In this document: piece after piece, positions 1 to 17,970 of the stretch
Numbering within the stretch: the first letter of the stretch is position 1
Layout: the number at the start of each line of letters is the position of its first letter
Notes under the pieces: generated by a model
The model's input: the letters and a program-made list of their open reading frames with translations, nothing else
What the model was told of the DNA's origin: nothing
The model's database searches: none
Program-made: the position numbers and the translations under genes
NCBI GenBank assembly: GCA_017483185.1
Contig: JAFULM010000007.1
Span: 1-56,691 of the forward strand
Length of the DNA: 56,691 nucleotides
Reading direction: 5' to 3'
DNA from: Prevotella sp.
GTDB lineage: Bacteria; Bacteroidota; Bacteroidia; Bacteroidales; Bacteroidaceae

Positions 1-457
1 CGTTGCGATGCAATAAGGGCCCCGTTGCTCGACCAAACCCTCTTTTTGGTCCAAAAACAACCATCAAAAACTCGTGAACTTTTGTAAAATTTGAAAGCCG
101 TAAGGGCCTTAAAGCCCCTCTCTGCCTCCCAAGCTCCCCCTTTGGGGGAGTCAGAGGGGGCTGTATTCGGGAGCTTTAAGGCCCTTATTGCCCATAGGAA
201 TGCAAATCTTTGAGCGTTTTCCCGAGCACGATTTTGTAAATAATTTTAAAAGATCTGGCGGAGCCTCACATCACCCACAAGTAGGATCGCGACCCGTCGC
301 GACCGCCTCGTTGGCACATAATCAATCACCTGACGGAACGTGCATATAAGCCAACCGAACGCGTTGTATCAGTTGGCAAGGAGGCGGTCGCGACGGGTCG
401 CGACCCTACTTGTGGGTGAGACATACGACAAAAAATGTATGCAGAGAGTAGCTCAAC
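1..457. repeat. Gene-free 457 bases: inverted copy of a long repeat, then a large palindrome
   Basis: I see no gene here. Bases 1-240 are an inverted, roughly 85-90% identical copy (by eye) of 23541-23785. Shared blocks include the AAGGGCCCCGTTGCTCGA stretch, the GGTCCAAAAACAACCATCAA stretch and the AGCTCCCCCTTTGGGGGAGT palindrome. A separate large palindrome fills 271-419. The sequence around 436-454 (TGCAGAGAGTAGCT) recurs at 34093-34106. The triple-enzyme gene on the minus strand ends at 458, so this region is its 3' flank. Confidence 0.8.
271..419. repeat. Large inverted repeat, 39-base arms
   Basis: The arms are 271-309 and 381-419, one mismatch apart, with about 71 bases between them. 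Each arm contains the GC-rich core TCGCGACCCGTCGCGACC, which is itself partly palindromic, and begins or ends with the TCACCCACAAGTAGG block. Similarity between the arms extends a few bases further inward, to about 316. It lies just downstream of the triple-enzyme gene and could end its transcript, but there is no T-run, so a mobile palindromic element is equally possible. Confidence 0.8.
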
Positions 458-3400
458 TCAAGGATGGGACTTCGGCAATGAATTATTATTCAGCTTCGGA
501 AGGGCCGGGTCGCTGAAGTCGATGGGAAGGAAGAGGTATGTCGCGTTATACACCGCATCGTTGCAGTTGCGCGTCTGACGGCTCTTGTCCTTGGGCACGG
601 GCGTGGCGAAATCCTGCGGGAATGGTTTGTGACCGACGTATGATTTTGCTTTTGCCTTCGCCGTCCTTATGGCATAGTCAGTATTGTTAGTCACCGGCTG
701 CCATACGTCGGCCAGCGCCCAATAGGACCCGTCGGACTTCCTGACCACGCTCGTGATCTGCGAACCGAAGGAGTGTTGCCACGGGTCACTGACGTGTGGA
801 TCACCCAGAGTCTCATACGCTCCGTGCGGATCGGTGAACCGATGGACCTGCGACGGATTGGGGATATAGCCCATCGTGCCGGAAGTGAACATATAGTGGA
901 CACCATCCTTGACGAAATGTGCCGGGGCCTCGCGGGTCAGCGGAGGCAGAAGGCCCGTGAAATGGCGGCTGTATTCATCCGTCACGTCGAGAAAATCGTC
1001 CGTCAGCGTGGCGCATATCATTTCGTAATGAGGACGCTCAAACCACACATAGCCCTTGCCCGTCTGCGGGTCGCACCACATGTCGAAGTCGCCGACACCG
1101 AAGCCCTGCGGCTTGATGGCACGGACAAAGCGATAGGGTCCCATGAAGTCGTCGGCCTCCATGACAACGAAATAGCCGTCGGTGTCCTGACTTTTCAGCC
1201 ATAGGGCAAACTTGCCGCTCTTCGGCGACTGAAGTATGTGGGGACGTTCCAGTTTCTGGGAATAGTGGATATAGGAAGTGACGTCGGTGGTGTCGGGAGT
1301 CATTATCAGTCCGCGGTCGTCCCAATGCTCAAAATCCCTTGAGGTGTAGCATCTCACACCATACGTCGAGACATTCGACCCGGGGATGGTCTTCTCCTTG
1401 TTCTCGCCGTACCAGTAGTAGAGGCTGTCCCTCCTCACAATCTGAAAGGCGTGGGCCTGTATCGGCTTGCCGTCGCTGTCGAGCATGGGGTCGTGAACCA
1501 CGACCATCTTCGACGGCTCTCCCCGCTCCACGACTGCCTTGTTCATCCGGAACACCGAAATCTTCTCGCAGCCGTCGACGACCAGCGCCGTGTCGGCGCT
1601 CTCAATCCGGAGGTCCTTCAGATTGCATTGCGCCACGTCTCTCAGACGTCCTATCGTCTTGCACGCGAAGCGCGAGTCACCCACAAAGAAGTCCTTCAGT
1701 TTGCTCTCGCTCAGTGCGACGACGTCAAAGAGGGCCCTCTCCGACTCTATGTCCACATTATTAATATATATAGACCTTATGGCGGGCGTGTTCTCCTTTG
1801 TCAGCGATGCCGCCACGACGCTGTCCGTCATGTCCGGATGACGCGCCGCCAGCTTGCCCATCCACCTGCTGTCCCCGGGCATTTCGACACATATCGCCGA
1901 GTGCTTTATGTTGCGTCCCTTGATGTTGTCCACCCATATCCGCTCCTGAAGACCGCCCCGCGTCCGACGGCTCTTGAAGCGTATGGCGCGGTCCGTGCCG
2001 TCGAAGGTGCAGTCGGTGCAATAGACATTACGTATGCCGCCGGCCGTCTCCGTGCCGGTCACGAAACCCGCCGCACCGCGCAGTGCCACGCTGTTGCGCA
2101 CCACGACATTCTCCGTAGGCCGGTTGACGCGCAGCCCGTCCCAGCCACGGCCCGACTTCAGCGTGTAGCAGTCGTCCTGACAGTCGAGCGTGCAGTATTC
2201 TATCAGCACGTTGCGCGACGACTCGATGTCGATGCCGTCGGTCCGGCCGTGGCCGTAGCTGTAGACGCTGACGTCGCGGATGATCACCGAGTCACAGTAG
2301 ATGGGGTTGATGTTCCAGTAGAGACTCCGGTCGAACGTGACCCCCTCTAACAGCACGTTGGAACAGTCAATGGCGCAAAACGACTTCGGAAGAAGCACTG
2401 CCCCACCCCGGTTCTTCTTCTTCCCGTCGAAGACACGGTTTTCCACAGGCTCGTCTTTTTTTACCGCCGCCTCGGCGTTGGCCTGTCCCGGAACGTTGGT
2501 CTGATAGAGTTCGCAGCCGGTGTCAGGACCGACGATGTGGCCCTTGCCCGTCAGCGCGATGTTTCTCTCGCCCCGCGCGTAGATGAAGGCACCCGTAGAG
2601 TAGACCTCCGTCCCCTCGTCTCTTGTGAAGACAGCGGGCCGGTAGTCCTTTATCATGCCGGAGAAGTGGAGATTGCAGCCCTCCTCCAGATGGAGGTTGA
2701 CACCGCTCTTCAGCGTTATCCGCGCCACGCTCCAGTCACCCGCGGACACGACCACCCATCCGCCGCCGTCATCTGCCGTCCGGTCGATGGCACGCTGGAC
2801 GAGCGTCGTGTTGCGCTTTGTGGCGTTCGCCCTGAGCCCTTCCACTCTCGTCCGACGTTCCTTGAACACGTTCCGTTTAAGTTGGGCCATCGGAAACGGC
2901 GCCTTTATCGGGTCAATCACGTCCTTTCCCTTGGCTATGACGAACACGCTTTCGTATGGCCGGAGCCTGAGCTTGCCGTCCTCCGGTTTCCGGCGCTCTC
3001 CGGTCAGGGGATTCCACAGTTCCATCCCGCGCACCTCACCGCGCAGTTCCAACGGATTTTCCGTGTCGTGGTTGCTATGATTATAGACAAAGTATATGTC
3101 CGCATCGTCTGTCTTCCGGTGACAGAAGTACGTCTTGTCGTCAGCCTCGTCGCGGCTCTCTATCCTCATGTCGGGCTTCAGGCCGGCCGCGGCCAGTGCC
3201 GCACCGACATCCTCGCCCTTGTCACATCTCACGACGAGCAGCCCCAGCGACTTCATCTCCGCGAACAGAGCCTCTGCCTCCGGCGTTATCCACGTCCGGT
3301 CCTGAACGACCAGCACCTTATAGTCCGGCGCATACGTGCTGTTCCGGTTCTCCTTCCACGCCTTCAGACTCCTCATCGTGCAGACATCAAAGCAATATCC

Positions 3401-5365
3401 CTCCGGCATGACCGGCAACTTATAGGCCATCGTCTTCAGCGGAGCGTCCTGACCTACGTAGACCAGCAGGTCGACGACGGGCCGTCCCGTCTGCAACAGT
3501 TGCGTGCAGCGGGCCTGATACTCCCAGAAATGTTCCCTGCTCCACGGCCATGCGGAGTTGTGACGGTGGAAGATATAAGGGTGCTGGCTGCGGGAATCAT
3601 CATATTTCCGGTCCATCCAGGGCTGATAGGACGATGCGCAGACGACAAACTCGTTGATGCCACGGCAGTAAGCCAGATTGGCTATGCGCAGCAGTTTGTG
3701 CCATCCGGCCGTGGCCTCAGCCTCGTCCGTGGTCTCCTTCGTGAAATAAGGGGAGTCGGTGAACGCCTCTCCCGACGCAATCTTCTTGCCGTAAAGGTGG
3801 GCGGCCGACGCGGCATCAAGGCAGTCGTAATTGCCGTTGGTCTGATATGCCCAGAACTCGCCCTGCGGTTTGTCCACCATTCCGCGCGACGCGATGTTGT
3901 CGTTAACGCAACCGAGCATGGCCTGCGACGTCAGCGTCAGCCCGTCCTCATGACACAGCCGCGCCATCGTTCCGTAGTACTGCTCGCTGATCAGCTCTTC
4001 TATCGTCCGTCTGTAGTCGGCAAGAAACGCCTCTGTTTTTTCCCGGCTCTCCACAATCACGCCGCCCAGCGCAGGAATCCACGGCGCGAGGTCATAGCCG
4101 CGGAGACGCCTGAAGTGGTCCGGCATCCGCTCCGTCCAGTTGGCTACGCCGGCCTCATGGGAGTCCATGCACACGCCCTGCGGCTTGCAGCCGATTGCGG
4201 TCAGCGTGTCTATAACAGGTTTGATGTAGCTGCGGTAGTGATGTTCGGCCGCCGCAGCGCTAAGGACGTCGCTTTCCAGCCATGTCTTGGCCGTCCGCAG
4301 CTCCCCGTTCCACACGATGTTGCGGCGTCCGTGCTTTGCGTGGCCGCCGGTCGGGGCGTAGCCGATACGGTATGTCGCCCCGCCGGAGCCCGTCTTGTGC
4401 TTGCCCCGAGGCGACAACGTGGCCGTGACCTCGCTCCGCAGTCCGCTCTTTTGCTCCCAGTTGTCGAGCATGTCGTAGTCCATCAGCCTGACGTTCTCCA
4501 CCTCCAGTTTGGTGTACTTGCTTTTCGGACCGAGCCAGTCGTGTATGTTGAGCCTGAAGAAGCGCGCCTTCACGGGCTTGAAGTTCAGCGTCCGCTGGCG
4601 GCTCTTGTGGCCGATAATGTCCTCAACACCGCGTACCTCGGTCACAGTCCTCCACGTCACACCGTCGTCACTGCACTCCAGTTCGCCTATGGGCGGCATC
4701 AGCACATATCCCGCACCGAAATGATGCTCCTGCGGTTTGCCCGGCACGTTCATGGAACCATACGATCCTTTTCCCCGCGGCGTCAGCATGAGACTCAGCG
4801 AGCGGACTTCATGCGCCTTTCCGCCGTCAAAGACTATCGTCGCCGGCTCGTTGTCCTTCAGCGTCAGACGACTCCGCTGTATGCAGGTGTCCAGCCCTTG
4901 CGGAAGCGTCAGGCGGGTGATTTCACGGAAACCTTTCGGCACGCGGTCGCCGTCACGCAGCACGACAATCTCCTTCATGCTCATCTCCGGTGTCACCCAC
5001 GGGCCGCCAGTCACGTAGCCGTTGCTGGCGGCAATCTCAAACGACAGTCCCAGCTCCTTTGCCCTGAGCGCGGCATATTTCAGCATGTCCCACCACGGTT
5101 GCGAGAGTGCGGGGAACGCCCCCTGCTCCGTGCCGTGGGTCTGGTCGTAATAGACCACGCCGCCAATGCCCGCCGCCTTAAAGGCCGCGAGGTCGGCGTC
5201 AATGCCCTCGCGCGTGGTCACGGTCTCACCGTGAAACCACCACAGTTTTGTGCGTGCCTCCTGCTGCGGCGTGAGAAATGTCTGCCACAGTCTGTCCGAA
5301 GCCACCGCCACATCCGCAAGAACTGCGACGGTCATGAGCAATAAGAGTTTTTTGAAACGTATCAT
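458..5365 (-). CDS. Three-module secreted pectin enzyme: GH106 + GH28 + GH43-like
   Basis: This 1635-residue protein has an N-terminal signal peptide (about 1-22). Residues 25-815 resemble GH106 alpha-L-rhamnosidases: the opening LWWFHGE...TREGIDADL, GGPWVTPEMSMKE near 120-132, the DSHE at 401-404 followed by NWT, and SGEAFT at 531-536. Residues 840-1265 resemble a GH28 right-handed beta-helix polygalacturonase, with the catalytic set TDGIDI (D1043), QDDC (D1064, D1065) and RFK near 1129. Residues 1285-1600 resemble a GH43 five-blade propeller, with DGKPIQAHA, YYWYGEN, and REAPAHF (E1479 as likely acid). The C-terminus has no type IX tail, so a periplasmic site is inferred. It is the last gene of the pectin operon, and a hairpin separates it from the GH2 gene upstream. 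The family calls are strong for GH106 and GH28 and somewhat weaker for GH43. The combined activity (removing rhamnose, galacturonate and a neutral side-chain sugar) is inferred. Confidence 0.88.
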   Translation of the reverse strand: MIRFKKLLLLMTVAVLADVAVASDRLWQTFLTPQQEARTKLWWFHGETVTTREGIDADLAAFKAAGIGGVVYYDQTHGTEQGAFPALSQPWWDMLKYAALRAKELGLSFEIAASNGYVTGGPWVTPEMSMKEIVVLRDGDRVPKGFREITRLTLPQGLDTCIQRSRLTLKDNEPATIVFDGGKAHEVRSLSLMLTPRGKGSYGSMNVPGKPQEHHFGAGYVLMPPIGELECSDDGVTWRTVTEVRGVEDIIGHKSRQRTLNFKPVKARFFRLNIHDWLGPKSKYTKLEVENVRLMDYDMLDNWEQKSGLRSEVTATLSPRGKHKTGSGGATYRIGYAPTGGHAKHGRRNIVWNGELRTAKTWLESDVLSAAAAEHHYRSYIKPVIDTLTAIGCKPQGVCMDSHEAGVANWTERMPDHFRRLRGYDLAPWIPALGGVIVESREKTEAFLADYRRTIEELISEQYYGTMARLCHEDGLTLTSQAMLGCVNDNIASRGMVDKPQGEFWAYQTNGNYDCLDAASAAHLYGKKIASGEAFTDSPYFTKETTDEAEATAGWHKLLRIANLAYCRGINEFVVCASSYQPWMDRKYDDSRSQHPYIFHRHNSAWPWSREHFWEYQARCTQLLQTGRPVVDLLVYVGQDAPLKTMAYKLPVMPEGYCFDVCTMRSLKAWKENRNSTYAPDYKVLVVQDRTWITPEAEALFAEMKSLGLLVVRCDKGEDVGAALAAAGLKPDMRIESRDEADDKTYFCHRKTDDADIYFVYNHSNHDTENPLELRGEVRGMELWNPLTGERRKPEDGKLRLRPYESVFVIAKGKDVIDPIKAPFPMAQLKRNVFKERRTRVEGLRANATKRNTTLVQRAIDRTADDGGGWVVVSAGDWSVARITLKSGVNLHLEEGCNLHFSGMIKDYRPAVFTRDEGTEVYSTGAFIYARGERNIALTGKGHIVGPDTGCELYQTNVPGQANAEAAVKKDEPVENRVFDGKKKNRGGAVLLPKSFCAIDCSNVLLEGVTFDRSLYWNINPIYCDSVIIRDVSVYSYGHGRTDGIDIESSRNVLIEYCTLDCQDDCYTLKSGRGWDGLRVNRPTENVVVRNSVALRGAAGFVTGTETAGGIRNVYCTDCTFDGTDRAIRFKSRRTRGGLQERIWVDNIKGRNIKHSAICVEMPGDSRWMGKLAARHPDMTDSVVAASLTKENTPAIRSIYINNVDIESERALFDVVALSESKLKDFFVGDSRFACKTIGRLRDVAQCNLKDLRIESADTALVVDGCEKISVFRMNKAVVERGEPSKMVVVHDPMLDSDGKPIQAHAFQIVRRDSLYYWYGENKEKTIPGSNVSTYGVRCYTSRDFEHWDDRGLIMTPDTTDVTSYIHYSQKLERPHILQSPKSGKFALWLKSQDTDGYFVVMEADDFMGPYRFVRAIKPQGFGVGDFDMWCDPQTGKGYVWFERPHYEMICATLTDDFLDVTDEYSRHFTGLLPPLTREAPAHFVKDGVHYMFTSGTMGYIPNPSQVHRFTDPHGAYETLGDPHVSDPWQHSFGSQITSVVRKSDGSYWALADVWQPVTNNTDYAIRTAKAKAKSYVGHKPFPQDFATPVPKDKSRQTRNCNDAVYNATYLFLPIDFSDPALPKLNNNSLPKSHP

Positions 5366-5400
5366 TCCGTATTATGTATTTGTTATCGTTCTGATAAAAA

Positions 5401-5455
5401 CATGCCGGGAATGAATGTACATGTCTCTTCGATATGCACATTCATTCCCGGCATG
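5401..5455 (-). terminator. Intrinsic terminator or attenuator between GH2 and triple-enzyme genes
   Basis: Perfect 18-base arms lie at 5401-5418 and 5438-5455 (core CATGCCGGGAATGAATGT). Read on the minus strand, the hairpin follows the GH2 stop codon by six bases and is followed by TTTTTATC, which fits an intrinsic terminator. The next gene on the same strand starts only 36 bases further, so this may lower transcription of the triple enzyme rather than end the operon. Confidence 0.75.
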
Positions 5456-5460
5456 CTCTT

Positions 5461-7884
5461 TTATATATTCACTTTCTTCACGACCGGCTTCATTCCGGTG
5501 CATGACGCTTTTAGTGTCACCGTGCCGCCCGCGGACTTCGGCCGGAGGATGACAAGCGCACCGCCGCGGTATAGCGTCGTCGACGGCATATCGAGACGTC
5601 TGTCCGTGAAATGGTCGCCGTTGTCAAGGGCCAGCAGTGCGGCGTTTTCTCCAACTTCGACCTTCACTTCGCCTTCATAGTTGTCCACAGGAAGACCCTT
5701 GCTGTCCACAGCCTGCAGACGCACATATATCAGATCCGCCGGTCGGCCTCCTGGCATCGGATTGTCCTCGACGGTCATCTTCAGACGCACCGCCTTGCCC
5801 GGCGAGCGCAGTTCGTGGCGGGCGACCTCACGGCCGTTGTTTCTTGCCACGGCAGTCACGCGGCCCGGTTGCCATGAGATGGCTCTCCACAGCAGCTTAT
5901 TGGCGACCTTGTCATTGCTGCGGTTGTTCCTTTTCACTCCGAGCGACCGGCCGTTCTGCAACAGTTCCACCTCGTCGCAGTTGGTGGAGACCTCCAGCGT
6001 AATGCTGTCTCCGGCGGCGGGCTTCCAGTAGAAATGGCTCATCTCGGCACGTCCGGAGAGAATGTCATTCCATATAATGCTCTTCTGCTCACCGTCCAGC
6101 ACGCCGATATGCACCTGCGGCTCGTCCTCCTTGAAGCATGAGCGCAGCAGATAGGCACGCGGATAGGGCTTCAACGTATGGTCGAAGAACGAATAGTTCC
6201 ATCCCTTTTTCGGCCAACCGTCGGACTCTCCCCAATATTCAATCGCACCCCAGTAGCACAATCCCACCGTCGACTTGCGGTCCATGCGCAGGAACGGCGT
6301 CACGAGATCGTTGACGGAAGCCTCGCTCTGGAAGATTATCAGGTCAGGGTCGCACTCCTTGTAGCGCGGATAGTCGGCATACTCGTAGTTGTATGACGCT
6401 ATCTCCGTTATGCGTGAAAGTTCCGGCGGCAGGATGTTCTCCTTCTCACGGAAGCCTTTGTCGGCCCGGCGTATGCCGTTGGCGCGCGCCGGATACATGG
6501 CCGCTGTCGACGGACGGGTGGCGTCGTAGCGCTTCAGGAGTACGTCCATCATGCGGAACATCGTCACGCCCCAGTCGCCTGTCATATATCCGGAGGCATT
6601 TTCGCGGTGCTGCATCTCGTTGCCCAGACTCCACATTATCACGCACGGATGGTTGCGGTCGCGCTTGATCCACTCCTGCATCAGCGGCACCCAACAGCTC
6701 AGGAAGTCTGTCCGTCCGCCCCAGCAGTTGCCGTCGGTGCTCCATTTGTCCACGAACTCGTCGACAACGAGTATTCCCATCTCGTCGCAAAGATCATAGA
6801 AACACTCCGGATAGGGATTATGGGAACAGCGCACGGCATTGAACCCGAATGCCTTCAGCTGGCGCAACTGGCGGGCAATGGCCGTCCGATAGGCCGCAAC
6901 GCCGACGCCGCCGAAATCGACATGGTTGGCAATGCCCTGCAGGAAGACCTTCCGGCCGTTGAGCCGGAAGCCAAAATCTGCGCCGTATTCGATGGTACGA
7001 AAACCGAAACGCTCTGTCTGACGGTCACGGGCGATGCCGTCGCAATAGGTCGTCACCTCCACATTATATAAATAAGGTGTCTCGCAGGACCACATGTTTG
7101 GATTGGCGACGTCAATCAGCGGCAGCTTCACCTCAACCAGTTCGAGGCGTGACGCCGCCGGACAGGCGAAGCGCCCGCTGCCGGCCACGACGTTGCCCGC
7201 TGCGTCAAGGATGCGCGCCTCGGTCTCTAACCGGCCTTTAGAAAGCGTGCTGCCGGCATATTCCGCCTGCACCGCGACCTGCCAGACACCACTGTCACCC
7301 TGTTTCGGAGCGGCCGTGACATAGATTCCATGACGTGCGAGCGCCACGGTGTCGGTCAGAATCAGGCGTACGTCGCGGTTGATACCACCGCCGGTGTACC
7401 ATCTGCTGCCACCGTCCGTTCCCGTGTTGGTATATACTGTCACGACGTTCTCACGGCCATAGTCCAACAGTCCGGATATGTCGCAGTCGAAACCGCAGTA
7501 GCCGTATTCCGTTCCGCCGATGTGACGGCCGTTGAGATAGACATCACCATAATACATCAGACCCTCAAAATCGAGCATCACACGGCGGCCCTTCCATGAT
7601 TGCTCCGCCGTGAAAGTCTTGCGGAACCATGCCGCCGCCTGCTTTTTGAAGGCACGGGCACGGTTGGCGCCTTTTTCCCAAGGCAGATTGAGCTGGAAAT
7701 CGTAAGGCAGGTCTATCGGCCGCCACGTCTCTCCCGGCGCAGGAACAGGCTCTTGGGTATTAGCGGTCAGGCAGAACTGCCAGCCGCGGTTGAAGTCTAT
7801 CACTTCGCGTTCCTTGGCGAAGGACAACATGGAAACTATGCACAGCAGCAGTGAGCATATTATTCTTATCTTATTCACAGTCAT
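5461..7884 (-). CDS. GH2 beta-galactosidase-like glycoside hydrolase
   Basis: This 807-residue secreted protein (signal peptide about 1-23) has the usual GH2 order. A sugar-binding jelly roll runs to about 180 (WYTGGGINRDV is typical). An immunoglobulin-like domain runs from about 185 to 300, and the TIM barrel begins near 305. Visible catalytic features are SHNPYP at 354-359, the acid/base glutamate E423 in SLGNE, and the nucleophile E521 in FQSEAS. C-terminal beta domains resembling those of other Bacteroidetes GH2 galactosidases follow 590. The gene starts 7 bases after the stop of the PL11 lyase gene, so the two are cotranscribed. The pectic context suggests removal of beta-galactose from rhamnogalacturonan side chains. 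GH2 also includes glucuronidases and arabinosidases, so the substrate is inferred. There is no type IX tail, so it is probably periplasmic. Confidence 0.9.
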   Translation of the reverse strand: MTVNKIRIICSLLLCIVSMLSFAKEREVIDFNRGWQFCLTANTQEPVPAPGETWRPIDLPYDFQLNLPWEKGANRARAFKKQAAAWFRKTFTAEQSWKGRRVMLDFEGLMYYGDVYLNGRHIGGTEYGYCGFDCDISGLLDYGRENVVTVYTNTGTDGGSRWYTGGGINRDVRLILTDTVALARHGIYVTAAPKQGDSGVWQVAVQAEYAGSTLSKGRLETEARILDAAGNVVAGSGRFACPAASRLELVEVKLPLIDVANPNMWSCETPYLYNVEVTTYCDGIARDRQTERFGFRTIEYGADFGFRLNGRKVFLQGIANHVDFGGVGVAAYRTAIARQLRQLKAFGFNAVRCSHNPYPECFYDLCDEMGILVVDEFVDKWSTDGNCWGGRTDFLSCWVPLMQEWIKRDRNHPCVIMWSLGNEMQHRENASGYMTGDWGVTMFRMMDVLLKRYDATRPSTAAMYPARANGIRRADKGFREKENILPPELSRITEIASYNYEYADYPRYKECDPDLIIFQSEASVNDLVTPFLRMDRKSTVGLCYWGAIEYWGESDGWPKKGWNYSFFDHTLKPYPRAYLLRSCFKEDEPQVHIGVLDGEQKSIIWNDILSGRAEMSHFYWKPAAGDSITLEVSTNCDEVELLQNGRSLGVKRNNRSNDKVANKLLWRAISWQPGRVTAVARNNGREVARHELRSPGKAVRLKMTVEDNPMPGGRPADLIYVRLQAVDSKGLPVDNYEGEVKVEVGENAALLALDNGDHFTDRRLDMPSTTLYRGGALVILRPKSAGGTVTLKASCTGMKPVVKKVNI

Positions 7885-7891
7885 ATCGTTG

Positions 7892-10300
7892 TTATCTTAC
7901 ATATTTCTTTCCGCGCATGATATATATGCCGCCACGCTCCGGCAAGCCGTTCATACGCATGCCGCAAAGGTTATATACGGTCTCCGCGTCGTTGCCATTG
8001 CGGCTGTTCTCACTGTTGACGCTCTCTATACCGGCGGCATCCTGTACGAGAATCCTTATCGTATCGGACAGTGTTACGCCCGAATCGCCGCCGGAGGAGC
8101 GCACTACAATTTCATAAAGGCCTTTGGAATCGGGCGTTCCCGTTATGGAGAAAGAGCCGTCCGGGGACTTCGTGAAATTGAAACATGGGGGAACGCCGTA
8201 TGATTTTATGTTCGTTCCATCAAGATATGTGCGGTAAACGATGGCACCGGTACAATTCTCCATGTCGCAGACAACAGGCTTCATGCTCTCTCCAAAATTG
8301 ACGGTCTGCTCCTTCGCTGAACCCTCACGGTAGATGAAATGGGGCGAGACGTAGTCAAGGAGATAATAACCGAGATGAGGCGGCTGGTTGTAGCCCACGT
8401 TCTGCCACGCAATGGAGAGACGGTACTGATGGTCGTGCATCAGCGTCGGCACCCGCAGTTTGGTGGCAACATTGGTCGAGAAGATATTGATGACGCTGGA
8501 GTCTGTCTTTGAAAAGAGTATTATCTCCTCGCGCCAGTCGCCGAACAGGTCGGCCGAAAGATTGGGATTGGCCTTCGTTCCGTATGACGCGGCATTGCCG
8601 TATCTGCCGAGCGACACCAGACGGTAGGTACCGTCCGTGGCCGTGGGCTTCTCCAGCTTCAGTCCGTCAAGCAGTTCGTCGTAGGCATCGCCATCCCAAT
8701 AAGTGCGGAAACAATAGCTCGGACGGGCTGCCACGGCCGTACTGATCACGCTGCCGTCAGCACCGCAGACATCATACGTGTCGGAACTCCAGAACTCGTG
8801 ACCGCGCCGCGTAGCATTTACGTCGGCCGACATGCCGCGCCCGGTGTCATCCTTGCCCGTGACATGGATGAGAATCTCGCCCGTGGCGGCATCGCGCACG
8901 GTCCAGCCGTAAGGCGCATCCTCATGCACCATAAAGAACTCCAGTCCCGGCCGGTCGGGCAACAGGTCGCCAAGATGCTGCGCGTCACCATGACCGAGGC
9001 CCGTACTGTAAAGCAGTGAGCCGTCGTCATCGATAGCTGCGCCGCCAAACATTATCTCGTCCTTGCCGTCATTGTCTACGTCGGCGACGGAAATATTGTG
9101 GCATCCCTGTCCGTAAGCCGTATTACCGGAACCGGTAATGCCGGAGGTATTGGTGGTATATGTCCATGATTGGGTGGTGCCGTCCTTATCGGTAAGCTGT
9201 ACTTCCGTCGGCGACAGCGAGGCATGAAGCCAGCGTGTGGACAACTTCTGCCCATCAAAATCAACAGCCCACAGGTAAGCACGTGTGTAATAGCCGCGGC
9301 ACATCACGGCGGAAGGATTGGCATCGGCACCTGCAAGATATGCCACACAGGCCAGATAGCGCTCCGCCCTGTTGCCGTAGACGTCGCCCCAGAATGATGC
9401 GTCAGTCGGATGGGAGGCTGCAGCACCGGTTCCGCCGGCACGGTTGGGAGTGTACCAGACGGTATGTATCGCCGCGCCGGTCATGCCGTCGAACACGGTC
9501 AGGAACTCCGCGCCACGCAGGATGTGGCCGTCGCCATTGACAAAGGACAGGCGGTTGTTGACGTTCTTTATGGCCGTGTCGTCTGACGCCTCGCTGACAT
9601 AGTTGCCCGCACCGTCCTTCGAGCCCGGTGCTGTCTTGCAGATCATCTCCGCCTTGCCGTCTCCGTCGAAGTCGTAGACCATAAACTGAGTGTAATGGGA
9701 GCCTGCCCGGATGTTGCTTCCCAAATCAATGCGCCACAGCCGCGTCGCCTTCGTATATGAATCGGAGAGCTTATAGCAGTCGAGAACAGGATTACCGGTA
9801 ATGCCGCTCTCCCCATTGTCCTTGCGGTTGTCCGGGTCCCACATCACGATGAGTTCATATTCGCCGTCACCATCCACATCGCCGACGGAGGTGTCGTGTG
9901 GGAAATAGTGATAGCCTTTGCCGCCGGCAGGTCGGTCAAGCTGGACGGTGGTGAATATATCGCCCCACGGTGACACCGCACCGGATGTCTCCTGTTCCAC
10001 TCCGTCGGCCTTTGCCACGACGCGATAGACACTTGACGGCGTTCCCTGGACATCGGCATAATTGCTGACTTTAAGATTGCTCGCCACGATGCGCTGGCCG
10101 TCATAAAGGTCGAAAGTCGTCGTCTTGTCGTCCGTCGCGAACACACGCCAGCTGACGAGATTGCCTTCCGCCATCTTTGTGGCCACCACCCCACGAGAAA
10201 GTTTCTCGTGGGGGAAAGCCTTGGTCATCTCCTGTGCGACGGCCTTAGCCCCGCAGGCCAACGCCATCGCACAGATAATAACAATCCTACATCCTAACAT
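7892..10300 (-). CDS. Rhamnogalacturonan lyase, family PL11, with type IX sorting tail
   Basis: This 802-residue protein has a signal peptide (about 1-22). An N-terminal FN3-like segment (LSRGVVATKM...LVSWR) is followed by the eight-bladed propeller of PL11 rhamnogalacturonan endolyases. The calcium-binding repeats are visible: DVDGDGEYELIVMWDPDN, DFDGDGKAEM with KTAPGSKDG, DVDNDGKDEI, and HGDAQHLGD. Family enzymes cut the rhamnose-galacturonate backbone by beta-elimination. After about residue 640 there is an immunoglobulin-like domain. The final 40 residues (YNLCGMRM...GGIYIMRGKKYVR) form a type A type IX sorting tail, which suggests surface display or release. The gene lies 12 bases after the 1066-residue protein gene and 7 bases before the GH2 gene. 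The family call is firm; YesW-like in name. Confidence 0.92.
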   Translation of the reverse strand: MLGCRIVIICAMALACGAKAVAQEMTKAFPHEKLSRGVVATKMAEGNLVSWRVFATDDKTTTFDLYDGQRIVASNLKVSNYADVQGTPSSVYRVVAKADGVEQETSGAVSPWGDIFTTVQLDRPAGGKGYHYFPHDTSVGDVDGDGEYELIVMWDPDNRKDNGESGITGNPVLDCYKLSDSYTKATRLWRIDLGSNIRAGSHYTQFMVYDFDGDGKAEMICKTAPGSKDGAGNYVSEASDDTAIKNVNNRLSFVNGDGHILRGAEFLTVFDGMTGAAIHTVWYTPNRAGGTGAAASHPTDASFWGDVYGNRAERYLACVAYLAGADANPSAVMCRGYYTRAYLWAVDFDGQKLSTRWLHASLSPTEVQLTDKDGTTQSWTYTTNTSGITGSGNTAYGQGCHNISVADVDNDGKDEIMFGGAAIDDDGSLLYSTGLGHGDAQHLGDLLPDRPGLEFFMVHEDAPYGWTVRDAATGEILIHVTGKDDTGRGMSADVNATRRGHEFWSSDTYDVCGADGSVISTAVAARPSYCFRTYWDGDAYDELLDGLKLEKPTATDGTYRLVSLGRYGNAASYGTKANPNLSADLFGDWREEIILFSKTDSSVINIFSTNVATKLRVPTLMHDHQYRLSIAWQNVGYNQPPHLGYYLLDYVSPHFIYREGSAKEQTVNFGESMKPVVCDMENCTGAIVYRTYLDGTNIKSYGVPPCFNFTKSPDGSFSITGTPDSKGLYEIVVRSSGGDSGVTLSDTIRILVQDAAGIESVNSENSRNGNDAETVYNLCGMRMNGLPERGGIYIMRGKKYVR

Positions 10301-10312
10301 ATTATCACTAAT

Positions 10313-13300
10313 TTACTTTATTACATATTTCTTGCCGTTGATGATGAATATGCCACGCTGCGGCATACGCACCCTCTGTCCTGCAAGGTTGTATATCGTT
10401 TGGGCGCGCTCTGCGGCGGAGTCAGAAGCCTCAACAGTATCAATGCCTGTAAGATTGCCCTTGTCGTCACCCAGGAAATAGAGCCGGAAGGCACTTACCC
10501 ATATAGCGGAAGACTGACGTATATTATAATATATGTGTATGTTCAGGTCCTCGGTACCGTCATATTGGAACTCAACCTTGTTTTCAATGGCCTGCGTGTC
10601 AAGTATCGGGAAGATATTCGTGGCGTGGGTATAGTCATAGAGCGTGAGTGTAGCGCCGTTGTCGTAAGTAAGGACATTGTCCTTCACGTCGTCATTAGTA
10701 TATCCCTCGACAAGTCCCTTAAGACGCACGCGCTCGTTTGCGCCGTGCAGCCAGATGTCGCGTGTGCCGTTATACCAGTCAAACTGGAAGTTGGAAGGTG
10801 CTGCCCAACGGAACGAGGCGTCTGCCTCAACGACATATTTGCCGGCCGGCATGTTCTTCAAATCCTGTCCGATGGTTCCGATATTGCCGGAAGAGGCGCG
10901 GAAATAGCCGTAGAATCCGCCTTCCTCACTGTAGACGAGGTCTTCCGTGGCCTCCACCGTCCATGCTTCCGGATTGTTCATCTCGGCGTCGTTGATGGCA
11001 AAGGTGACGTCGAAACATGTGCCTTCAGCCGGATAGACTCCGCTGAGCATGAACAATCGCTGGGCGCTGAGGAGAGCTTCCTTTGCCTCTTTGAGGACTT
11101 CAAGCGTGCCATTTGTCTTCGACTGAGCGGTGGCGATGGCATCGGCGAAAGGCTTTGTTTCAACGCCATTAGGATTGCGTGACGAAGAGAGATAGCCCTG
11201 AGCGACGGCTATGGCATTTTCCAGCGCCTCCTTAGCTTCTGCTATTGCGCCGGCCTTGGAGTCCTCGTCATATTTGTCGGCCGGTCCATAGTATCTTAAC
11301 ACGACATTACCCATTGTTATTGTGTTGCAGACCGCATTTTCACGACCGTCGAGTCCGATACGCATCATCGTTCCGTCATTGACGGTAAGTTTTATCGTGA
11401 ATGTCTGCGGAGCGCTCTTGGTGTGCACCTGCAGTTTCTCGTCACCGGCGATAAGATAGACACCGGTTTCTTCCGAATCCGAAGACTGCTGCTCATTGAG
11501 AGCGATTATCTCGGCGGACAGCTCATAGACACCCGCACCGGGAAGCTCCACATCCTGCCATACATACTTGGCATCATGGGCTGTCACGCCACGCCATACA
11601 TGAATGGCACGGCCCGTCGTGAATCTGTCGTCCTTGATATACTTCCAGTTGCCGAGATCATCCGTCTCCCATCCATACGACTCGTTGGCAAAGGTCTCGT
11701 TGAAGAAGCGTACGTTCATCGGTGTGTTATAGCTGGCCGTGCCCTTCAGGAAGTTGTTTTCAGCGTCGAGCAGAGCCTTGTTCTTCTCGGTGACGGCGTC
11801 GTCCGGCCGTTCGGTCAGGGCAGCGAAATACTGGTCGACGGCATTGATTACGGCCGTGAGGGTCTCGTCTGCGTTGGCAATGGCTTTGGCATGAGCAAGG
11901 TCATTGCGGAGATTGGTATAACCGACATTGGCGTGGATGTAGTCAGCAATACCGTTGAGCACCTCACGCGACTGCGTGGTGATTTCCTCCATGTCCCTTG
12001 AACTGTCATATATGTTCTGCGCGGCGGCAATCTTCTCCGAGAAAGCCGTCTTCTCAAAGAGATAATCAGGCATCGTGATGACGATATTCGCCGAATCTAT
12101 CGCCTCGCGGAGAGACTTGCGGGCCGCAGCCAGTTCCTTTCCGAGGACATACTCCTCAATGACAGAGGGATCCGTGCCTATATAACGCAGTTCGGCATCA
12201 TCAAAAGAATACCAATGTCCCTGCTTGCCTGTTATGCTGACGCCGAACGAGATCTTCTCTCCTTCACGCACCTCACCGATTGTATAAAAGGTGTTCACAT
12301 GACCGACCTCAAGCGGCGTGGCCTGTGTCTTGCCGTCGTTCACGAACAACGATGTTCCCTCTATATCATAATCGTAATCTGGATTTGAGGTACGTCCCTC
12401 AAAGCGGTAGCCCAGTCCGCGGATAGAGAAGAGATATTCTCCCGGAGGCAGGTCTGCCGTCTGGCGCAGCTCGCCGTCTTTCAGTTCTGTGGTGCCATTG
12501 CCGACCTGATAGTCGACATAGACACTATTGAAATACGCCTGACTGCGTGAGGGATATGACGGCGGCATGAGCATCCAACGGTCTCCGGCTCCCGGAGTGC
12601 ACACCCACGCATCACTGTCGCCGATGTTGCCCACCTTCCACTGCGGTGCTGTTATTCCTGTCTCGAAATCCATGTACTTCAGATATTCGTTACATTTGAC
12701 GGTGTTCGCATCAAGGAAAGTAGCAAGGAATTCCGTGTAGAAGGTTGACTCAATATCTTCTATCGTATAAGCATCGTGAAGCCCGGCTTCGTATGAACCG
12801 AGTATAACATCGTTGACAACATTCCTGAACTCTTCCTTGCCGTTGGGGAAACGCGGGTCGTCAAGGAAACGGGAAGCCACGTCATACAACTTCTTCAACC
12901 TTCGGTCATCTCCACATTCGTATGCATCAAACACTCCGAAGTCAGTAAAGCTGTCTCCGACCTGAAGACCGGAAAAGTTGATTACGATATAGCCATTTGC
13001 CGCAGGGGTATAGTTATAAGTTATCTCCGTCCAATCAGATGTATAGCTCTTTGTCTTTGCTATCGCGACAAAACCGTCTGACTTGAGCGAACAGGAACCA
13101 TCGGTATTGTAATAGACGTTCTGATAATTCATTTCCTCGTTACTGACACTTGTCGTGCTGCTGATATCCATAGAACGTGCCTTATATGTAATGACGTATG
13201 TCCGTCCTCCCTGAACGGGGAAGGTCTTCAGGATACTCGCGCCATCACTGTTGGTGCCGTATCTCAGCACCGTCAGGCAGTTCGTCCCGTCAGGACCGCT

Positions 13301-13513
13301 GCCATCAACGGAAAAATCGTCACCACTCAACGTTTCCCCGGTGGCTGTGGTCCACCCGTCAAGACCGTTACCGAACATACCGTTCTCTACCTGATTGCGA
13401 CCAGTGAGGTAGAAACAGGCGGCCTTCGTATAAACATAGTCTCCTTGCGTGACAGCAAGAGACACAAGGCTACATGCCAGAAACAAGATTGTTGTAGATA
13501 GATGTTTAATCAT
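10313..13513 (-). CDS. Large secreted multi-domain protein of unknown function, first gene of pectin operon
   Basis: I do not recognise a catalytic family in this 1066-residue protein. It has a signal peptide (about 1-20). Beta-rich segments resembling carbohydrate-binding jelly rolls lie at about 40-195 (NGLDGWTTATGE..., a family-4/9/22-like style), 280-440, 600-740 and 850-1010. They alternate with short helical bundles rich in Ala, Glu and Lys at about 445-590 and 750-835, similar to FIVAR-type spacers. The C-terminus has the IYNLAGQRV...RGIFIINGKKYVIK sorting tail, so the protein is probably on the surface. It is the promoter-proximal gene of a pectin operon and is followed 12 bases later by the lyase. 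A polysaccharide-capturing or scaffolding role is inferred from domain style and position only. A catalytic function hidden in one domain cannot be excluded. Confidence 0.75.
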   Translation of the reverse strand: MIKHLSTTILFLACSLVSLAVTQGDYVYTKAACFYLTGRNQVENGMFGNGLDGWTTATGETLSGDDFSVDGSGPDGTNCLTVLRYGTNSDGASILKTFPVQGGRTYVITYKARSMDISSTTSVSNEEMNYQNVYYNTDGSCSLKSDGFVAIAKTKSYTSDWTEITYNYTPAANGYIVINFSGLQVGDSFTDFGVFDAYECGDDRRLKKLYDVASRFLDDPRFPNGKEEFRNVVNDVILGSYEAGLHDAYTIEDIESTFYTEFLATFLDANTVKCNEYLKYMDFETGITAPQWKVGNIGDSDAWVCTPGAGDRWMLMPPSYPSRSQAYFNSVYVDYQVGNGTTELKDGELRQTADLPPGEYLFSIRGLGYRFEGRTSNPDYDYDIEGTSLFVNDGKTQATPLEVGHVNTFYTIGEVREGEKISFGVSITGKQGHWYSFDDAELRYIGTDPSVIEEYVLGKELAAARKSLREAIDSANIVITMPDYLFEKTAFSEKIAAAQNIYDSSRDMEEITTQSREVLNGIADYIHANVGYTNLRNDLAHAKAIANADETLTAVINAVDQYFAALTERPDDAVTEKNKALLDAENNFLKGTASYNTPMNVRFFNETFANESYGWETDDLGNWKYIKDDRFTTGRAIHVWRGVTAHDAKYVWQDVELPGAGVYELSAEIIALNEQQSSDSEETGVYLIAGDEKLQVHTKSAPQTFTIKLTVNDGTMMRIGLDGRENAVCNTITMGNVVLRYYGPADKYDEDSKAGAIAEAKEALENAIAVAQGYLSSSRNPNGVETKPFADAIATAQSKTNGTLEVLKEAKEALLSAQRLFMLSGVYPAEGTCFDVTFAINDAEMNNPEAWTVEATEDLVYSEEGGFYGYFRASSGNIGTIGQDLKNMPAGKYVVEADASFRWAAPSNFQFDWYNGTRDIWLHGANERVRLKGLVEGYTNDDVKDNVLTYDNGATLTLYDYTHATNIFPILDTQAIENKVEFQYDGTEDLNIHIYYNIRQSSAIWVSAFRLYFLGDDKGNLTGIDTVEASDSAAERAQTIYNLAGQRVRMPQRGIFIINGKKYVIK

Positions 13514-13681: not shown

Positions 13682-16600
13682 ATGCAGAAACTGTTTTTGC
13701 TCATCATCATCTTGTTGACATCCGGTGTCTCTTTCGCAGCGGAAGAAATAACGGCCTATCATCTTTCCACGACAAACGGACTGCCGGACAACGATATCAG
13801 ATATATCGACAGCGACAGTAAAGGTTTTCTCTATCTCACGTCAAAGTATTACACATGGCAGTATGACGGATATTCATATCGTCTGATGAACGACAGTGTC
13901 TTCCGACATTACCAGACAAAGAGCCGGAGCACGAAGAAGGACGCGGAAGGTTGGATGGCGGACAACAGAGGCAACAGATATAAGGTCAGCGACGGTATGG
14001 TTGTCTACCGCGAGCGTCACACCGGCCAGACCTATAGCTTCAACGTCTATGACGAGCGAGTCGCAGCACTGGTGAACTCGCTTAAAGTCTTTGTCGTCAC
14101 CGATCGGAAAGGACGCATTTGGGCGTCGGTCAACGGCAACGGAGTGTTCATCTACGACAAGAAGACCGCGGCCGTGAGACACCTTTGCGCCGCAGACAAC
14201 AACAGTGTGATCGACTATGACATGATTGTCGCCATCCATGAAGACCGTAACGGCGACATATGGGTGTCACAGGAGCACTACGGCATCGTCCGGCTGAGAT
14301 GCGAGCGGCAGATGGTCAGCGTGACATTCCTCGACGGAGAGAGACATTCGCCGACGTACAGCAACGTCCGGATGATGCAGAAGCAGGAGGACGGCACCTA
14401 TCTGATAGCCAACAACACGGGACGTGTCATGCTGGCCGATGGGGCGATGAGGACGTTCACACCATTGAAAGTGCCGGACGAGAACTATCTGTCGGCCTGC
14501 CGTGACGCGGAGGGCAGACTGTGGTTAGGAGCGAGGCAACACGGCGTATTAATAGAAGGCCGGTGGTTTTCCGGCGGCAGGGTCGACTGTATCTACCGTG
14601 ACAACCGGGGAAGGATGTGGATCTGCGGTATCACCAATGACTTGAAGATTCTGAAATATGACAATGGTACCGTGACGGAACGGACCGTGATAAGCGGCAT
14701 TGCGCCCCGTTTCATGTACGAGGACAGCCGTGGCATGGTGTGGCTTTGCGCGAACACCGGCCTCTATGTCTTCAGACCCGATGAGCTGTCAGACGACAAG
14801 AGCAGAATCAGGAAAGTGACATCCACCCCTACCCGCACTGCATTTGAGGACTCACGGCACAAGATGTGGATTGGTACGGAGAACAAAGGACTGCTGATTG
14901 GCAGCCCGGACAGCAGGGACGAGACCCAGTTCAGGATTCTGTCCAGCGCAGACGGACTGCCGAACAACGTGGTGCAGGGCATTTTAGAGACAAGAGACGG
15001 AACTGTCTGTATCACAACCGAGGACGGCTGCGCCATCGTCGACGCCAAGGGAAAGGACGTGTTGAGGACCATCTACTTTGATAATGAGATGAGACGGAAC
15101 TTCTATAACGAACGCTGTATAGCCGGCCTGACGGACGGAAGGACAGCGCTGGGGTCGTTAGACGGTATCGTGATAGTGGACACCCGGGGAACATCTCTCA
15201 GACAAGCAGGAGGAACCAATCTGCCGGTCAGCATCACGGGCATGACCATCAACGGCATACAGACGTATGAGATGACCGAAGACTGTCCCTTCAATGGTGA
15301 TATAAGCGACGTAAGGGAAATGACACTGAAGCATAATCAGAATTCAATAACGCTCTTCTTTTCCGATTTCTCCTACGGCGACAGGATGCAGACGGACTAT
15401 TCATACAGGATGATAGGATTGGACGAGACATGGAGCACGCCGTCGGAATACAACTTTGCGACGTTCCGCGACCTGAAGCCCGGCAGATATGTCTTTCAGG
15501 TGAGACACCGCCGGCGTGGCGGCGAATGGATTACAGACGAGCAGCTGCTGGCCGTCACGGTGCTTCCTCCGTTCTGGGCCACGTGGTGGGCGATGATGCT
15601 CTATGGCATTGCGGCCACGGTCATCGGCCTCATTGTTTATAGAAACGCCCGGACGATGTACCGTCTGCGCAGGGACGTCGAGGTGGAAAGACAACTGACA
15701 GAATACAAACTGCGGTTCTTCACCAACATATCCCATGAGTTCCGCACACCACTGACCATAATCAAGGGTGCTATGGAACGCATGAGGGCGCAGGAAGTAC
15801 CGGGTGACATGAAGATGCCATTGTCAAACATACAGAGAAGTGTAGGACGCATGTCACGGCTCATCAACCAACTGCTGGAGTTCAGAAAGATGCAGAATGG
15901 GAAACTTTCGCTGGCCCTTCAGGAAACGGAGATTGTCGGCTTCGTGAGAGATATATGGGAAACCTTTGCGGATGTGGCGGAAGAGAAACACATCAGCAGA
16001 TCGTTCGTGACGCAGGAAAAGACGATGCAGGTGTTTGCCGACCGCAGCTCGCTTGACAAGATTGTCCACAACCTGCTGTCAAACGCCTTTAAGTACACAC
16101 CTGACGGCGGTACCGTCACATTGTCCATAAAACACGACAAGGAGACACTCCGGCTGGTTGTGACAGACACCGGAGTCGGCATATCACCGGAGAAGAAAAA
16201 AGAACTCTTCTCACGCTTTGTCACGGGCAAGGTTTCGGCCGACAGCATCGGCATCGGGCTCAACCTGACATGGGAACTCGTACGCACACATCACGGCACG
16301 ATCATCCACGAAGACAATCCCGTAGGCGGCTGTATCTTCACCGTCTCACTGCCTATGGACAGAAGCGTCTATGCGGAAGAGGACTTCATGAGGGAAACGT
16401 CCGTTCTGATCGCCAGCGGTGCGACGACACAGGAAACGGAAAGACGCTATCAGGAGATGGCCCCGCCGCCGATGAACGACGTGAGAGTGCTCGTGGCGGA
16501 AGACGACACTGACGTCGCCCTGCTGCTGCGCAGCGTATTGGGACGATATTTCATTGTCGACGTGGCCCACGACGGCGTGGAGGCATGGGAGAGGCTGCAA

Positions 16601-17251
16601 GACCCGACGGACTATCGGCTGCTGCTGACCGACGTGATGATGCCGCGCATGAACGGCTATGAGCTGATAAGGAAAATGCGGCAGGACGGGCGTTGCTCCC
16701 GGATACCCATAATCATGCTGACAGCCCTTGAGTCTGACGAAGAACGGGCTAAGGCTCTTGAGGAAGGTGTCAGCGCGTTCATCGGCAAACCTTTCAACAC
16801 AGAGGTGTTGGTGGCCCAATGCGTGAACCTCCTGAACAGGACGCGCGAAAACACCTCCAAAGCACAGTCTCCCGCTGACAATAAAGCGGCCGTGAAGCCA
16901 GCCGGCGTGCCGAAACTCATCACTGAGGAGAAGGACAGGATGTTCCTGAGACAGTTAGACAATATTATAATGGAGAGAATCGGTGACGCCATGCTCGACG
17001 TAGATACACTGAGCTCGCTGTTCGGCATGAGCAAGACGCCCTTCAACAAACGGGTAAAGACACTGACGGGGGAGACACCTGCCGCATACGTCCGCAACAT
17101 CAGGCTGCAACGGGCATACGACATTCTCGTCGCTCCGGACAACACGATGAACGTACAGCAGATAGCAACGTCCGTGGGTTTCTACAATTCCCAGCATTTC
17201 TCCGTGGCGTTTAAGAACAAGTTCGGTGTTTCCCCGAAACAATGCATGTAG
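13682..17251 (+). CDS. Hybrid two-component system regulator of the pectin locus
   Basis: This single 1189-residue chain combines sensor and regulator. It has a signal peptide (1-19), then about 500 residues of periplasmic two-bladed propeller repeats (ITAYHLSTTNGLPDNDI, GRIWASVNGNGVFIYD and similar), then a Y_Y_Y domain near 545-615. One membrane segment lies near 628-650. The HisKA domain has H685 in NISHEFRTPLT. An ATPase domain runs to about 895, and the receiver has the phospho-acceptor D984 in LLTDVMMPRMNG. An AraC-type helix-turn-helix covers about 1100-1189. This is the standard Bacteroidetes carbohydrate sensor, which activates a neighbouring utilisation locus when its periplasmic domain binds an oligosaccharide. 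It is divergent from the pectin operon, so that operon is the likely target. All key residues are present. Confidence 0.95.
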   Translation: MQKLFLLIIILLTSGVSFAAEEITAYHLSTTNGLPDNDIRYIDSDSKGFLYLTSKYYTWQYDGYSYRLMNDSVFRHYQTKSRSTKKDAEGWMADNRGNRYKVSDGMVVYRERHTGQTYSFNVYDERVAALVNSLKVFVVTDRKGRIWASVNGNGVFIYDKKTAAVRHLCAADNNSVIDYDMIVAIHEDRNGDIWVSQEHYGIVRLRCERQMVSVTFLDGERHSPTYSNVRMMQKQEDGTYLIANNTGRVMLADGAMRTFTPLKVPDENYLSACRDAEGRLWLGARQHGVLIEGRWFSGGRVDCIYRDNRGRMWICGITNDLKILKYDNGTVTERTVISGIAPRFMYEDSRGMVWLCANTGLYVFRPDELSDDKSRIRKVTSTPTRTAFEDSRHKMWIGTENKGLLIGSPDSRDETQFRILSSADGLPNNVVQGILETRDGTVCITTEDGCAIVDAKGKDVLRTIYFDNEMRRNFYNERCIAGLTDGRTALGSLDGIVIVDTRGTSLRQAGGTNLPVSITGMTINGIQTYEMTEDCPFNGDISDVREMTLKHNQNSITLFFSDFSYGDRMQTDYSYRMIGLDETWSTPSEYNFATFRDLKPGRYVFQVRHRRRGGEWITDEQLLAVTVLPPFWATWWAMMLYGIAATVIGLIVYRNARTMYRLRRDVEVERQLTEYKLRFFTNISHEFRTPLTIIKGAMERMRAQEVPGDMKMPLSNIQRSVGRMSRLINQLLEFRKMQNGKLSLALQETEIVGFVRDIWETFADVAEEKHISRSFVTQEKTMQVFADRSSLDKIVHNLLSNAFKYTPDGGTVTLSIKHDKETLRLVVTDTGVGISPEKKKELFSRFVTGKVSADSIGIGLNLTWELVRTHHGTIIHEDNPVGGCIFTVSLPMDRSVYAEEDFMRETSVLIASGATTQETERRYQEMAPPPMNDVRVLVAEDDTDVALLLRSVLGRYFIVDVAHDGVEAWERLQDPTDYRLLLTDVMMPRMNGYELIRKMRQDGRCSRIPIIMLTALESDEERAKALEEGVSAFIGKPFNTEVLVAQCVNLLNRTRENTSKAQSPADNKAAVKPAGVPKLITEEKDRMFLRQLDNIIMERIGDAMLDVDTLSSLFGMSKTPFNKRVKTLTGETPAAYVRNIRLQRAYDILVAPDNTMNVQQIATSVGFYNSQHFSVAFKNKFGVSPKQCM

Positions 17252-17280: not shown

Positions 17281-17970
17281 CTATCTCGTCGCCTCGGCAA
17301 AGCGCTCCATCAGCCACGCCTTCTGCTGGTCGATGGTCAGATAGCTGTTGTCGAGCGTGAGGGCGTCGGCAGCCTTGGTCAGCGGAGACACCTCGCGATT
17401 GGAGTCTATGTAGTCACGCTCCTCGATGTTGTGGAGTATGCGGTCGTAGTCTGCCGGCATGCCCTTCGCCTTCAGTTCGTCGTAACGGCGGCGGGCACGC
17501 ACATCGGCTTCGGCCGTGACGAAAATTTTCAGTTCGGCGTCGGGAAATACAGTCGTTCCGATGTCCCGTCCGTCCATGACGATACCCTTCTCACGTCCCA
17601 TGCGCTGCTGCTGGGCGACCAGCGCGGCACGCACTGCTGGCTGGGCGGCTACGGGGCTGACATGTGTCGAAACCTCCATCGTACGTATCTCGCGTTCGAC
17701 ATTCTCGCCGTTGAGACACGCCTCGGGCAAGCCCGTGGTCTCGTTGCGCACAAACGTGATCTCTATCTGCGGCAAGTGACGCTCCAATTCGGCCACCTTG
17801 ACCTTGCCGCCGTTCTCGAAGAGCCCGTTGCGCAGGGCGTAAAGCGTCACGCATCGGTACATGGCTCCCGTGTCCACATAGATATATCCCACCTCCCGGG
17901 CGAGGTCTTTGGCCATCGTGCTCTTGCCGCACGAAGAGAATCCGTCGATGGCTATCACAATCTTTTTCAT
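17281..17970 (-). CDS. cmk: Cytidylate kinase
   Basis: This 229-residue protein transfers phosphate from ATP to CMP and dCMP in the cytoplasm. The P-loop GFSSCGKST at 9-17 follows [14 protein letters not shown] (about 31-39) is the conserved cytidylate kinase segment, and [14 protein letters not shown] near 145 and the RRYDE lid region are also present. Length is normal. The gene converges with the hybrid sensor gene, with 29 bases between them. From memory, porQ and ispH are common neighbours of cmk in Bacteroidetes. Here porQ is separated from it by the Panacea toxin-antitoxin pair, and ispH is 23 kb away. Confidence 0.95.

Follow-up and report, generated by a model that had tools for sequence, protein, structure and literature searches.

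A Prevotella protein joining GH106, GH28 and GH43 modules in a locus that points to rhamnogalacturonan-I

The enzymes used by Bacteroides thetaiotaomicron on rhamnogalacturonan-I (RG-I), namely the lyase, the GH106 rhamnosidase, the GH28 rhamnogalacturonidases and the GH2 galactosidases, are separate proteins as far as the accessible text of the source goes (PMC8002723). For GH43 subfamily 24, which is without the usual Asp base, the available part of another account proposes a Gln as the base in Pc1,3Gal43A and BT3683, and reports that E102 of Pc1,3Gal43A recognises the C4-hydroxyl of galactose (PMC7939473). The gene described here, from a Prevotella-type gut bacterium, encodes members of GH106, GH28 and GH43 in one chain. 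Each part is of a known family, and the whole is of a kind that is already known: the multicatalytic CAZyme. A literature search, whose scope took in few subscription journals and did not extend to CAZy, found in the accessible texts no chain with all three. The sequence-only reading had likewise known of no such enzyme; this agrees with the literature, but the combination is not unique, as a second triple fusion is present in a public MAG (L091). The gene is probably a genuine in-frame fusion within a locus for RG-I utilisation, and its product an exported exo-glycosidase with three catalytic modules that trims RG-I oligosaccharides.

The window, i.e. the whole stretch of DNA that was analysed, comprises positions 1-56,691 of contig JAFULM010000007.1 of Prevotella sp. 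GCA_017483185.1 (genome G000). On its minus strand, which the sequence-only reading had not named, a frame that is unbroken from ATG to stop encodes 1635 residues (P0001; Table 1), while a plus-strand reading of the same interval is ruled out by many stops. All three Pfam family matches exceed the curated cut-offs: GH106 with its best stretch at 32-696 (E 6.2e-100; PF17132, 336 bits, cut-off 29), GH28 at 987-1162 (E 8e-14; PF00295, 51.9 bits, cut-off 22.9) and GH43 at 1308-1550 (E 1.8e-9; PF04616, 37.8 bits, cut-off 32.2). Matches to F5/8 type C, Beta_helix and Malt_amylase_C lie below theirs. Three family matches in so long a frame are not due to chance, and each module also matches PDB sequences (GH106, 6q2f and 5mqm; GH28, 5olp and 3jur; GH43, 6eug and 6euf). 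The protein was modelled with AlphaFold in two parts, with 11 sequences per alignment; the models of residues 1-822 (mean pLDDT 71.2, pTM 0.74) and 812-1635 (69.8, 0.61) are both of moderate confidence. The three-family frame that had been proposed from the letters is thus borne out by the open reading frame, Pfam, the PDB matches and the folds of the part-models; domain search and structure prediction place all three regions inside the named families, and DSHE (401-404), GEAFT (from 532), D1043, D1064, D1065 and E1479 all occur at these numbers. The replaced GHG-motif His of the GH28 module and the subfamily-24 character of the GH43 module are additions to that first reading.

Table 1. Features of the fused gene and its neighbours (window coordinates).
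Feature	Position	Strand	Basis or remark
Fused gene GH106-GH28-GH43 (P0001)	458..5365	-	1635 aa; ORF, Pfam and PDB sequence matches
Signal-peptide-like stretch, residues 1-23	5297..5365	-	Judged by eye; no lipobox Cys seen
GH106 module, residues 24-814	2924..5296	-	Pfam, catalytic residues, fold; short form without C-terminal jelly-roll domain
Junction and linker, residues 814-830	2876..2926	-	GH106 end runs in frame into mature GH28 start
GH28 module, residues 816-1280	1526..2920	-	Pfam, alignment, fold
GH43 module, residues 1291-1635, subfamily-24-like	461..1495	-	E1321, E1373, R1374, D1426, E1479, Q1536
GH2 protein (P0002)	5461..7884	-	Pfam; closest in NCBIfam to the GalA/GalB beta-galactosidase models, below cut-off
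PL11 rhamnogalacturonan lyase (P0003)	7892..10300	-	Pfam
CBM4_9-domain protein (P0004)	10313..13513	-	Pfam
Hybrid two-component regulator, HTCS type (P0005)	13682..17251	+	Pfam
Cytidylate kinase	17281..17970	-	Past the HTCS gene; in G128 directly beside the stand-alone GH106 gene

The GH106 module is predicted, on the basis of its family, to be an alpha-L-rhamnosidase. Its part-model matches the fold of 5mqm, with BT0986 and a Novosphingobium rhamnosidase as the proteins matched. The two Glu residues E404 and E533, which presumably have the catalytic roles of their equivalents in BT0986, are identical in 24/24 GH106 rows of the alignment. The jelly-roll model NF045579 is absent from the NCBIfam matches of P0001 and of a related stand-alone gene in another genome of the genus (G128), and is present in L091.

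The GH43 module resembles subfamily 24 in its residues and in its PDB relatives. It had been taken for a side-chain-cleaving module; the family stands, and the description can be refined, since PDB alignment and fold (6euh, TM-score by target 0.67, part-model 812-1635) give exo-beta-1,3-galactanases as the nearest relatives. The acid E1479 and Q1536 are each present in 41/41 GH43 rows, and Q1536 is the probable base. The equivalent of E102, residue 1373 (window 1247-1249), is Glu in all 12 rows that have GH28 before GH43 and Asp in the 29 remaining ones, a split that may reflect either a specificity switch tied to the architecture or shared ancestry. The subsite -1 residue W229 of Pc1,3Gal43A is replaced by Y1500, and this position is Tyr in 40/41 rows and Phe in one. 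This Tyr counts against the preferred reading and leaves the linkage unspecified; we expect an activity of the galactosidase type.

The GH28 module had been called polygalacturonase-like. It does belong to GH28, but NCBIfam, PDB alignment and fold agree that the nearest relative is an exo-galacturonidase and not an endo-polygalacturonase. For the part-model 812-1635 the fold matches are 5olp, an exopolygalacturonase from Thermotoga and, on the GH43 side, the galactosidase BT3683, and the beta-helix fold of GH28 is reflected in the match to 5olp (TM-score by target 0.82), which we take to be BT4155. The residues D1043, D1064 and D1065 are present in 53/53 GH28 rows, and R1129 and K1131 of the RxK motif are kept in the 32/32 rows that are linked to GH43. 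GH28 enzymes also have a His in the GHG motif, which is present at the aligned place in 5olp and in 7/21 rows without a GH43 link. In P0001 this residue is A1098, and the GH43-linked rows have Ala (29/32) or Gly (3/32); since this holds for all 32, the loss is a feature of the clade and not peculiar to P0001. The module has, moreover, changed fast, and its function may be altered: 10/111 near-invariant columns are changed in P0001, versus 1/86 in GH43 and 0/68 in GH106 (the latter count excluding the row of L061), and its end branch measures 0.76 versus 0.31 and 0.43 in the sisters. The replaced His, the altered columns and the long branch all count against the preferred reading and would fit a real fusion whose GH28 module has drifted to become inactive, a binding domain or an enzyme of altered specificity. 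Nevertheless, with the three Asp, R1129 and K1131 retained and the His loss common to the whole GH43-linked set, we consider such drift rather unlikely.

The neighbouring HTCS, CBM, PL11 and GH2 genes point to RG-I as the substrate. In the relatives, GH106, at times GH2, a similar CBM protein, PL11 and GH43-GH28 recur as gene neighbours; of this set, the two glycosidase genes are merged into a single one in the window. Among the subset of open reading frames scanned, no SusC or SusD was found. The best functional models for P0001 in NCBIfam are those of the B. thetaiotaomicron RG-I enzymes, and both lie far under their cut-offs (BT4155 for GH28, 223.7 of 800 bits; BT4145 for GH106, 100.7 of 1300 bits). 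Both values count against the preferred reading, and the function of P0001 is therefore assigned by family and not by orthology. A target other than the RG-I backbone, i.e. type II arabinogalactan or the side chains of RG-II, would be in line with the nearest solved GH43 relatives, which are exo-beta-1,3-galactanases of arabinogalactan, and with the nearest solved GH106, BT0986, which we take to be an RG-II enzyme; but a PL11 RG lyase adjoins the fused gene, as it does in most related loci seen, and the partner module is a GH28, so that we give this target little credence. The proposal of a periplasmic chain acting on branched rhamnogalacturonan is accordingly kept in part: the N-terminal signal-like sequence, judged by eye, and the PL11/GH2 context agree with it, and RG-II is less favoured than RG-I.

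Some further elements of the window deserve mention. Between the GH2 gene and the fused gene lies a hairpin (5396-5460) whose arms are 30 nt and whose loop is 5 nt long. It occurs once only in the G000 genome and was set aside as an agent of the fusion, a role for which there is no evidence. At 271-419, 3' of the fused gene, a REPIN-like inverted pair is found, the 23-mer core of which occurs 89 times in forward and 94 times in reverse orientation (at most 2 mismatches) in the 2.47 Mb genome, with 0 for the reversed control. In many of the listed copies a minus copy is followed by a plus copy ~75-135 bp further. The genome contains one Y1_Tnp (RAYT-type) gene (contig C41, 26098-26382), with REPIN copies on both sides within ~2.5 kb. 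The window also encodes a protein of 1227 aa that carries Omp28 and Big_5 domains (26056-29739) and a SocA/Panacea-domain protein (18304-18864).

The junction can be compared with unfused relatives on both sides. In G128 the GH106 gene stands alone, encodes a protein 94% identical to the module and stops at residue 814; at the DNA level the two match (90.7%) over window 2923-5387, a stretch that starts ~20 bp ahead of the ATG and runs to the stop. The sequence that follows the junction in P0001 is the beginning of the mature GH28 protein in L088. The G128 gene sits between a cytidylate kinase gene and a MotA/TolQ/ExbB gene (Pfam), and the gene preceding the kinase there matched no Pfam model. 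Kinase and GH106, adjacent in G128, are separated in the window by the HTCS, CBM, PL11 and GH2 genes, with GH28-GH43 beyond; either a gain in G000 or a loss in G128 may account for the difference. Of the cytidylate kinase loci compared, 25 in all and 18 from the genus (counting that of the window), none has a GH106 within the ~1.5 kb flank. In G000 the MotA/TolQ/ExbB region lies close to the end of contig C21 (0.5 kb away), in an orientation that fits the G128 order, and window 1-110 (the end of C52) and the right end of C21 (L176) both carry copies of one repeat; this fits a contig break at that place but does not prove adjacency. No k-mer of at least 21 around the junction recurs within the window (two of length 17 and five of length 15 do), and GC is even across the join. 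An assembly error, in which the MAG would have joined two separate genes or two organisms, might be suspected from the 61 contigs and 74.7% completeness of G000, the separate GH106 gene of G128, a junction only ~2.9 kb from a contig end and an exact module order seen in no other genome examined, yet it is very improbable: the reading frame is kept where one protein naturally ends and the other, in its mature form, starts; the k-mer and GC results speak against it; the flanking genes, the kinase on one side and the MotA/TolQ/ExbB region at another contig end, fit the G128 order; and a second triple fusion exists. The refutation by chimeric assembly was addressed through synteny and boundaries, and a chimera is held unlikely.

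How common such fusions are was assessed in overlapping genome samples, with few candidates scored per genome. A search with the whole protein in 200 genomes of the genus gave some match in 167 and a full-length match only in the window's own. With the GH43 module, 20 of 398 genomes of the genus matched at E 1e-60, and among them all three modules are combined solely in the frame of the window (1637 codons); in G285 a GH106-GH43 frame of 1432 codons is present. At family level 6 of 399 genomes matched, including the window's, and the remaining matches lie in frames of 851-887 codons. A GH28-GH43 profile matched 6 of 393 genomes of the order, the window's included, the other five over the GH28 part, in frames of 447-599 codons. 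Across 84,980 species genomes 527 relatives were confirmed, of which the best 80 were analysed: 28 of these 80 loci have GH43 and GH28 in one frame, one (L091, 1898 codons) is a GH28-GH43-GH106 and one (L093, 1489 codons) a PL11-GH28-GH43 protein, both confirmed by Pfam. The 41 distinct GH43 rows comprise 21 GH43-GH28 and 10 GH28-GH43 proteins (L093 included), one GH106-GH43, two triple fusions and 7 in which neither GH28 nor GH106 was detected; neither was found in the GH43 frames of a further 46 loci (L121-L166). Within the genus, GH28-GH106 fusions occur in G023 (L082) and G115 (L213), and a GH78-GH106 fusion (G141, L212 3997-9666, 1890 aa) places two rhamnosidase families in one chain. Fusion of catalytic modules is thus common in this group, which makes P0001 less singular and more believable; that the full GH106-GH28-GH43 chain is complete in one genome only counts against the preferred reading.

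Two other proteins may be noted. A GH28-GH88/105-type protein of ~1590 aa is encoded in the window's own genome (L085 8247-13013, contig C37), and its C-terminal part matches no Pfam model. Many genomes of the genus have GH28 matches in frames of ~1590-1730 codons. Another partner of this GH43 lineage is found in L060 (1734-4091), where DUF3089 and a GH2-type sugar-binding domain precede GH43.

Trees of the three modules were built from 104 sources (L002-L037, L060-L120, L167-L172 and the window), excluding L038-L059 and L121-L166. From the frames matched at E 1e-15, short ones (3/38 for GH106, 3/88 for GH28, 3/73 for GH43) and identical ones (11, 32 and 29, respectively) were removed. The GH106 tree, in which L061 is a long row, groups the window with G128 and two more short-form genes (support 100/100) and places L091 among long PUL-type genes. 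In its GH43 module the window falls together with L087 and L088 (72% identity, support 100/100), two MAGs of Paludibacteraceae that come from the rumen and reticulum of roe deer, and in the same tree L091 pairs with L093 (93/81). The GH28 tree is concordant but has long branches and warnings. The AU test, run on a pair chosen after the trees were seen, rejected a single clade of window and L091 with p-AU values of 2.9e-06 (GH106) and 1e-76 (GH43). The two proteins are best read as separate triple fusions, and since a relative appears to have built the same kind of protein separately, in another order, the fusion looks both real and repeated.

In the preferred reading, a short stand-alone GH106 gene would have lost its stop codon and been joined in frame to a GH28-GH43 gene at the point where the mature protein begins, so that a single signal peptide exports the three modules, probably to the periplasm. 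Lyases such as PL11 would cut the RG-I backbone into oligosaccharides, on which the fused enzyme would work from the non-reducing end, residue by residue: GH106 would take off the terminal alpha-L-rhamnose, GH28 the galacturonic acid newly exposed, and the Gln-assisted, subfamily-24-like GH43, perhaps together with GH2, the beta-galactose side residues. Of this picture, the frame, the families, the catalytic residues other than the GH28 His, the setting of the locus and the recurrence of fusion are observed, while the exact linkages, the place in the cell, the activities of the modules and any benefit of a single chain are inferred. The idea that a branched oligosaccharide is taken apart without releasing intermediates finds no support in these results, and exo-acting modules would release monosaccharides. 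A chain of this kind is a candidate tool for pectin processing. More tentatively, independent fusions in varied orders may recur because one chain brings a real kinetic or stoichiometric gain, by uniting exo-hydrolases that alternate on Rha and GalA with a galactosidase that debranches; P0001 would then be among the most complete single-chain RG-I degraders. By repeatedly fusing enzymes that must take turns on the RG-I backbone, nature has in effect run an experiment on the value of physical coupling; as the modules occur singly (GH106 of G128), paired (GH28-GH43 of L088) and in triple fusions of two orders, coupling can be tested with natural proteins.

In comparison with known systems, BT4145 (GH106) and BT4155, BT4153 and BT4146 (GH28) of B. 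thetaiotaomicron belong to the same families as the modules of P0001 and would presumably share their substrate, but in the accessible text they are separate enzymes (PMC8002723), and the P0001 modules score far below their models' cut-offs. With BT3683, BT0265 and Pc1,3Gal43A of subfamily 24, as described in the available part of that account (PMC7939473), P0001 shares the acid Glu, the putative Gln base and the C4-recognising Glu/Arg/Asp; it differs from Pc1,3Gal43A in having Tyr for W229 and in the joining of its GH43 to GH28 and GH106. Other pectin-related multicatalytic proteins, as far as their sources are accessible, combine two catalytic modules with other partners: OtCE15C is a fused CE15-GH106 (PMC10807430), and Segatella copri has a tandem GH28-GH105 protein (PMC11784079). 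The GH28-GH106 and GH78-GH106 proteins of the same genus couple GH106 to a pectin or rhamnoside hydrolase, as P0001 does, but are made of other GH106 and GH28 lineages and are without GH43. Finally, L091, from the Prevotellaceae MAG RUG10679, has the same three families in one chain, and differs in its order, in a long-form GH106 with a jelly-roll domain and, it appears, in its separate origin.
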